This document shows positions 6,488 to 21,358 of a DNA stretch of 64,000 nt, one piece after another (within the stretch, counting starts at the first letter, position 1; the number at the start of each line of letters is the position of its first letter). The DNA lies in contig JAMPIQ010000003.1 of the NCBI GenBank assembly GCA_024699855.1, forward strand, positions 8,866,001-8,930,000. Direction: 5' to 3'. Made by a program: the position numbers and the translations under genes. Origin of the DNA: Aphelenchoides besseyi (taxonomy: Eukaryota > Nematoda > Chromadorea > Rhabditida > Aphelenchoididae). The notes beneath the pieces are model-generated. The model saw nothing but the letters and a program-made list of their open reading frames with translations, searched no databases and was not told the origin of the DNA.

Positions 6488-6628
6488 GGAATTGAATTGC
6501 ATTCTGTTGTTTATACTCAAGAAAATAAATCTTGCAGATTCTCTAGTAACCTCTTTTGCGAAGAGAAAAGATCGCACTGGCGGAGTAGAAGGTCAGAGAA
6601 CGAAAACAAGACCCGCGAAAACGGTCCA

Positions 6629-6648
6629 ACCCATCACTTTTGTTGCTT
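6629..6648 (+). promoter_or_regulatory. candidate PSE-like element of SL RNA unit A
   Basis: A 20-nt block (ACCCATCACTTTTGTTGCTT) starts exactly 60 nt upstream of the leader. Unit C has 17 or 18 of the same bases at the same distance (21201-21220). That offset is where metazoan snRNA and SL RNA genes carry the proximal sequence element bound by SNAPc. The sequence and spacing are seen directly; the function is inferred. Confidence 0.6.
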
Positions 6649-6688
6649 TCCGCTGTCCACTTGTTTTCGTTTCTGCTGCTTATCGACA

Positions 6689-6786
6689 GGATTTAAGATC
6701 CAAATTAAGGTACGAAGAGTTCCGAGCCATTTCGATGTGTTTGGAATCTCGAATTTTTGGCTCAGTTCTTGGGGACTCCCAGGAAC
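6689..6786 (+). ncRNA. candidate spliced-leader RNA, unit A
   Basis: The unit has the architecture of a nematode SL RNA. Leader: 21 nt at 6689-6709, beginning GGATTTAAGATCC and ending AAG. Donor: GT at 6710. Internal hairpin: GTTCCGAGC (6719-6727) with GTTTGGAAT (6739-6747) around an 11-nt loop. Sm-binding site: AATTTTTGG (6752-6760). Terminal hairpin: 9 bp (6765-6786). Compared with unit C, the internal stem differs at two positions that both keep G-U or A-U type pairing, and the terminal stem differs while still pairing. The leader itself can form a short GGAT/ATCC helix, as many nematode leaders do. Total length is about 98 nt. Expression and trans-splicing are not shown by sequence alone. 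Confidence 0.75.
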
Positions 6787-6888
6787 AGACAATCTGAATA
6801 ACATGAGTCTTTGAACGCCCAAAATATCGTGAAGATTCAAGAGAAAGCAACCAGTTGATTTCATTTTGTGGTTTTTGATTCGGTTGGG

Positions 6889-19614: not shown

Positions 19615-19690
19615 AGATTTTAAAATCCAATAAGGTACTTAAGCGTTCCGAACCATTTCGGGAATCTCGAATTTTTAATTGATATCGTTG
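19615..19690 (+). pseudogene. decayed spliced-leader RNA copy (unit B)
   Basis: The PSE-like block at 19554-19573 is intact. The leader region (19615-19634) equals unit C except that the first G is A, and the GTACTTAAGC donor region is identical. The unit then loses 8 nt from the internal hairpin. Its Sm site reads AATTTTTAA instead of AATTTTTGG, and the terminal hairpin is absent. The upstream 100 nt also align with unit C, so this is a duplicated, inactivated copy. Confidence 0.65.
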
Positions 19691-19718
19691 TTTTTAACTT
19701 GTGTGTGAAATTGAGTAA

Positions 19719-21200: not shown

Positions 21201-21220
21201 ACCCATCGGTTTTGTTGCTC
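21201..21220 (+). promoter_or_regulatory. candidate PSE-like element of SL RNA unit C
   Basis: The block ACCCATCGGTTTTGTTGCTC begins 60 nt upstream of the unit C leader. The same block, nearly unchanged, occupies the same position in units A and B. This is the expected place and length for an snRNA-type proximal sequence element. Confidence 0.6.
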
Positions 21221-21260: not shown

Positions 21261-21358
21261 GGATTTTAAAATCCAATAAGGTACTTAAGCGTTCCGAACC
21301 ATTTCGATGTGTTCGGAATCTCGAATTTTTGGTTCAGTTCTTGGGGATATCCGAGAAC
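21261..21358 (+). ncRNA. candidate spliced-leader RNA, unit C
   Basis: Leader GGATTTTAAAATCCAATAAG (21261-21280) followed by GT at 21281. Internal hairpin GTTCCGAAC (21291-21299) with GTTCGGAAT (21311-21319). Sm site AATTTTTGG (21324-21332). Terminal hairpin GTTCTTGG/CCGAGAAC (21337-21358). The unit is 98 nt, the same as unit A. All elements required of a nematode SL RNA are present and in order, and the leader ends in AAG like several leaders of early-branching nematodes. An upstream block of about 150 nt is shared with unit B. Confidence 0.78.

Follow-up and report, generated by a model that had tools for sequence, protein, structure and literature searches.

The window analysed here is a stretch of 64,000 nucleotides (C3:8866001-8930000) from the genome of the rice-parasitic nematode Aphelenchoides besseyi, which comprises 47.4 Mb in 31 contigs, three of them large (18.1, 17.8 and 10.0 Mb). 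Three large contigs fit the 2n=6 given for this species (PMC11555361, in part). On the plus strand, positions 6689-6786 of the window hold a candidate spliced-leader (SL) RNA gene whose 98 nt can be read directly. A 21-nt leader ending in AAG (GGATTTAAGATCCAAATTAAG, 6689-6709) is followed by a GT splice donor (6710-6711, context AAG/GTACG), an internal hairpin in the intron-like part (helix 2, 6717-6750, present in the fold with an open Sm site and in the alignment fold), a predicted Sm-binding site (AATTTTTGG, 6752-6760) and a terminal hairpin, GTTCTTGGG-GACT-CCCAGGAAC (6765-6786), of nine pairs, one of them U-G. The original prediction had claimed a leader of this length, which is borne out base for base, together with the donor, the internal hairpin, the Sm site and a 9-bp terminal hairpin, all within 98 nt, and each is where it should be. 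The loop region of the terminal hairpin, GGGGACTCC, also occurs in the SL2-like gene L030. Elsewhere in the window, the open reading frame at 10406-11044 matches Pfam MDD_C, mevalonate diphosphate decarboxylase (E 5.7e-42), and that at 4915-5376 matches DUF1679/ecdysteroid kinase-like (E 2.7e-08 and 1e-05).

Compared with its dinucleotide shuffles, the 100-nt stretch 6689-6788 has the better fold (z -2.99), 2 of 200 shuffles being equally good. In the predicted fold the leader forms a 5-bp hairpin with itself. As is expected of an SL RNA, the molecule is about 100 nt long and its Sm site is flanked by hairpins, although the free minimum-energy fold pairs part of that site; when the site is held open, a three-hairpin fold results that is 1 kcal/mol weaker (-30.9 versus -31.9). 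A leader of about 20-23 nt standing directly before GT, another feature of such RNAs, is found in the window copy and in 12 other intact members of its family.

An snRNA-type promoter lies upstream (6602-6641, plus strand), and the transcription start of the RNA was placed by its distance from the PSE. The prediction of a block about 60 nt away proved correct, as the PSE core ACCCATCACTTTT occupies 6629-6641 at -60, with CCCATC from -59; the part of the promoter further upstream resembles, judged by eye, that of SL1-like and SL2-like genes. A second intact copy of the gene in the window has the core ACCCATCGGTTTT (21201-21213, plus strand), and the same 13 bases stand at an equal distance before the U2 genes L037-L040. 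Of the 13 copies found first, 10, a decayed one among them, have a CCCATC that begins at -59 or -60, and the other three (L003-L005) have CCTGTC in its place. For counting, identical upstream regions were collapsed; the SL1-like set came from 8 loci, the U2 set from 10 of 11 loci (L043 is without the required 5' string), and the decayed L013 counts among the family upstreams. Between -61 and -57, CCCATC is present in seven of nine distinct family upstreams, all seven exact, against 0.30 in shuffles with up to one mismatch allowed. If one mismatch is tolerated, it lies within these positions in 8/8 distinct U2 upstreams, 7/7 SL1-like, 2/2 SL2-like and 1/6 U1, the U1 genes having it mostly at -56. 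The distinct SL1-like upstreams and L030, L031, L116 and L117 carry CCCATC or a one-base variant near -60. Thus an snRNA-type promoter, whose core and spacing are common to U2 and SL1-like genes, stands before the window gene, and the upstream block is, by its sequence, the snRNA promoter element of this genome. In Caenorhabditis elegans an snRNA promoter motif has the PSE as its core, and an SL2 RNA promoter fell to 3-7% when either half was mutated (PMC2527325, in part).

The gene is one of many. A DNA search of the genome gave 13 related copies on C1 and C3, of which 12 are intact and one is decayed. Two of these also lie on the plus strand of the window, and neither was mentioned in the original prediction. 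The second intact gene (21261-21358) has the leader GGATTTTAAAATCCAATAAG (21261-21280) and its donor at 21281; it scores 109.8 bits with model R1, but an identical RNA (L006) sat in the alignment behind that model. The decayed copy (19615-19714, 35.0 bits with R1) has a leader that starts AGAT and an 8-nt internal deletion, and has lost the GG of the Sm site and the terminal hairpin. A pattern for the 3' half, allowed up to three mismatches, matched 57 sites in the genome versus 17 in the reversed control. The 13 sites with zero mismatches are the 12 intact copies and L031; four others are an intact member (L118), a decayed member (L119) and two SL RNAs with a different leader (L116 and L117), and L030 is also among the 57. 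Many of the remaining 39 must be chance matches. With L118 and L119 added, the family has 15 members, 13 intact and two decayed. The intact members carry eight distinct leaders of 20-22 nt, six starting GGAT and two GGGT, where the leader of L118 was taken to start at the second of three G, which puts its CCCATC at -59. All 13 keep AAG/GT, an Sm site and GTTCTTGGGG of the terminal hairpin while leader length varies, though keeping these three is also how intact was defined. The window leader itself has two mismatch-free occurrences in the genome, in the window copy and in L002. As there are 13 genomic copies, and the stretch that L006 has in common with L007, and likewise with L009, is just 218 bp long (from -118 to 2 bases beyond the end of the RNA), the window gene is not a chance arrangement. 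L007 and L009 have 982 bp in common.

Duplicated blocks permit a comparison of the RNA with its surroundings. The RNA is cleaner than its flanks in the blocks of L001/L002 (0/98 differences versus 107/1109, 101 of the 107 lying downstream), L006/L008 (3/98 versus 169/1497) and L011/L012 (0/98 versus 33/679). The difference reaches p<0.05 in four of nine pairs with flanks, these pairs overlapping in their members, and gene conversion could be another cause of it. Covariation is thin: within the family both partners have changed in one of 17 consensus pairs, and in five of 20 when L030 and L031 are added. The MAFFT alignments A1 and A2 misplace the gap in the leader, and covariation in the leader was left uncounted there; model R1 rests on A2 and shares this flaw. 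Pairing of the leader with the bases before the Sm site is a possibility, and this long-range pairing was matched by under 4% of shuffles in only two of nine sequences.

We then asked where the family stands among known small RNAs. The covariance-model search proposed with the original prediction, made with Rfam, gave a match of the window copy to Rfam SL2 (RF00199) at 23.3 bits, below the cut-off of 41, while no Rfam family reached its gathering threshold anywhere in the window. The copy L008 scores 26.2 bits, and L030, at 42.8 bits, is the one SL2-like gene of the genome above the SL2 cut-off. L031, L116 and L117 form a bridge, as they join GGTTT leaders (GGTTTATTTACCCAGTACAAAG in L031, GGTTTTTACCTAGTACTATTAAG in L116 and L117) to a 3' half resembling the one in the window family. 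The window family, L031 and L116 have an Sm site with five T and a GGGG-type terminal loop, and L030 has six T, whereas the SL1-like genes have four T and another terminal loop. Model R1, whose nine source sequences include L030 and L031, finds the held-out L116, L117, L118 and L119 at 42-77 bits; it gives SL1-like genes 11-28 bits or no match, and does not match any of six control loci (two each of U1, U2 and LTR-like). R1 also hits L031 on the minus strand (15.4 bits); this hit was rejected, its sequence being without a donor-like leader.

In a genome search with Rfam SL1, in which 50 of 10971 candidates were scored, 42 places were listed at E<=10; none was over the cut-off and none was one of the 13 family copies. 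The Rfam scan of the locus keeps only the best match of a clan and could hide one to SL1. Since the SL1 and SL2 searches each gave matches at E<=10 in 4 of 14 control genomes, none over the cut-off, weak matches to either in this genome include chance ones. By its Sm site, terminal loop and bridging relatives the family is apparently nearest the SL2 class, and nearer SL2 than SL1; as the window copy and L008 score below the Rfam SL2 cut-off, this filing denotes likeness rather than membership.

The window gene is thus very likely one of a dispersed family of SL RNA genes, and its small RNA very probably supplies other mRNAs with a short leader at their front. This agrees with the original prediction, which is supported by the architecture as checked, by the snRNA promoter element and by the SL RNA genes that bridge to the SL2-like ones. 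We infer that the snRNA promoter element, some 60 bp upstream, would direct RNA polymerase II to make a capped RNA of about 98 nt; that Sm proteins would bind AAUUUUUGG to form an snRNP; and that the 21-nt leader would be trans-spliced from its GU donor onto the acceptors of other pre-mRNAs. The likeliest specialisation would be for the downstream genes of operons, because the five-T Sm site, the terminal loop and the bridging relatives are nearer SL2. It is highly improbable that the gene encodes another Sm-class small RNA (SmY or an unnamed snRNA) whose AAG/GT goes unused as a splice donor. Such an RNA could also have the PSE and Sm site, which U2 genes share, but the donor is retained while leaders vary in length and sequence, and the bridging RNAs bear GGTTT leaders. 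Rfam includes SmY models, and its scan of the locus at E<=10 gives SL2 and one bacterial family, with SmY unlisted. We also consider it unlikely that these are disused SL RNA genes, an expanded and mostly silent family: two of 15 members are decayed, leaders vary, and no leader copy within one mismatch is found outside the family, but 12 of the 13 first-found copies keep the donor, Sm site and terminal hairpin, and in three duplicated blocks the RNA shows significantly less change than the flanks.

A reading that contests the operon role only, and whose likelihood therefore overlaps with that of the SL RNA explanation, is that these are working SL RNAs used promiscuously and without SL2-type specialisation. 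We regard this as quite possible, if short of probable. In Globodera pallida most genes appear to be spliced to any SL (PMC4054857, in part), and 45.5% of the trans-spliced transcripts of Heterodera glycines receive at least two SLs (PMC6362198, in part); the Sm site and terminal loop of the window family nevertheless side with L030/L031 and not with the SL1-like genes, and so do the model scores, although L030 and L031 were in the model. More tentatively, the family may be a lineage-specific set of SL2-type snRNPs in A. besseyi that has lost the GGTTT 5' end, has kept the pairing of the leader by compensation (GGAUU/GAUCC inside the leader, GGAUU/AAUCU before the Sm site) and serves operon resolution. 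The SL2-like relatives have GGUUU with AAACC where the window family has GGAUU with AAUCU.

Leader copies elsewhere in the genome have some bearing on use. Two leader patterns, with up to two mismatches, matched 5 and 15 sites (1 and 0 in reversed controls), of which 13 are known copies and seven have two mismatches; the leader of L118 falls outside the patterns. Family leaders, that of L118 excepted, have no copy within one mismatch outside the family in the genome, and for the leader of L031 no copy outside SL genes turned up within three mismatches. This absence fits minor or operon-bound use, and also disuse. The seven two-mismatch sites were rejected as SL genes, none having GT directly after. 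One of them, the single-copy L061, matches the last 18 bases of one leader, but was counted as chance; by eye it resembles a usual intron end (TTTTTAG) followed by coding sequence. In the other six the match at the 3' end covers no more than 13 bases.

The SL1-like genes of this genome have the leader GGTTTATTAACCCAAGTTTGAG, for which 122 sites within three mismatches were found (2 in the reversed control), 100 of them listed. This leader also occurs in LTR-like repeats, at 33 sites on C1, C2 and C3 (L074-L093 and L095-L107; for example C1:1363824 and C1:1370754). Of 40 chosen regions, 39 (not L110) hold a site within three mismatches, and of the 41 sites in total 33 are without an Sm site and 8 resemble SL genes, a ratio that does not stand for a genome frequency, as the regions were mostly picked for not resembling SL genes. 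Some repeat copies are alike as far as the final base of the leader and diverge from there (L074/L092 and L100/L101), and TGT...ACA ends in some (L084, L104 and L106) are those of putative LTRs. The likeliest cause would be that retrotransposon RNA was trans-spliced and then copied back, as has been proposed for SL1 sequences flanking PAO retrotransposons in Brugia malayi (PMC7181701, in part). If so, the leaders embedded in repeats would be indirect genomic evidence that A. besseyi trans-splices SL1-like leaders.

The kind of gene described here is known; its leader sequences are unmatched in the literature searched. The original prediction had not recognised the window leader from known sets, and its 13-base start is indeed absent from 5.39 million open-licence papers, the search being of these papers alone. 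Absent too are all five 13-14-base starts, which represent seven of the eight leaders, L118 having the exception, and the leader of the SL1-like genes. SL2-type SL RNAs (Rfam RF00199; C. elegans SL2) are alike in their length of about 100 nt, in a leader followed by GT, in the Sm site AATTTTTGG and in a terminal hairpin with GGGG, and a PSE promoter, as here, is also a feature of the SL2 RNA loci of C. elegans (PMC2527325, in part), but their leaders start GGTTT and not GGAT or GGGT. A. besseyi is placed in the suborder Tylenchina (PMC11555361, in part), in which Aphelenchus avenae likewise has many leaders, with 12 variants, four of them ending CAAG and called SL2-like by the authors; none of the 12 starts GGAT or GGGT, and they were found on mRNAs, whereas the A. 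besseyi family is known from genes alone (PMC2825203).

Species-specific and diverse spliced leaders are already known in plant-parasitic cyst nematodes (PMC6362198 and PMC4054857, both in part). HgSL3-13 of H. glycines are likewise a species-specific leader family with hairpins and an Sm site; HgSL4-13 came from a BLAST search of the genome, the approach also taken here, while HgSL3 was shown on cDNA and by RT-PCR, and the likeness to the A. besseyi family is one of description, not of leader sequence (PMC6362198, in part). According to the Bursaphelenchus xylophilus genome paper, SL2 trans-splicing appears to be absent from that species (PMC3164644), and A. besseyi falls in one clade with Bursaphelenchus (PMC11118728, in part). 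As A. besseyi carries SL2-like and SL2-related SL RNA genes, that statement can be retested. Read searches that expect GGTTT leaders would miss mRNAs with GGAT or GGGT leaders, if such mRNAs exist.

The genome has further SL1-like genes. L094 (C3:8864150), 1.85 kb left of the start of the window, has a PSE-like block and an Sm site. L108, L109 and L111 have leaders ending AAAG (GGTTTATTAACCCAAGTTAAAG and GGTTTATTGACCCAAGTTAAAG), a promoter-like block and an Sm site. Among the matches listed there are also five divergent head-to-head pairs of SL1-like genes, at C1:4361910/4362243, 4550352/4550685, 4694679/4695012, 4755796/4756129 and 4854184/4854517, with leader starts 333 bp apart in each.
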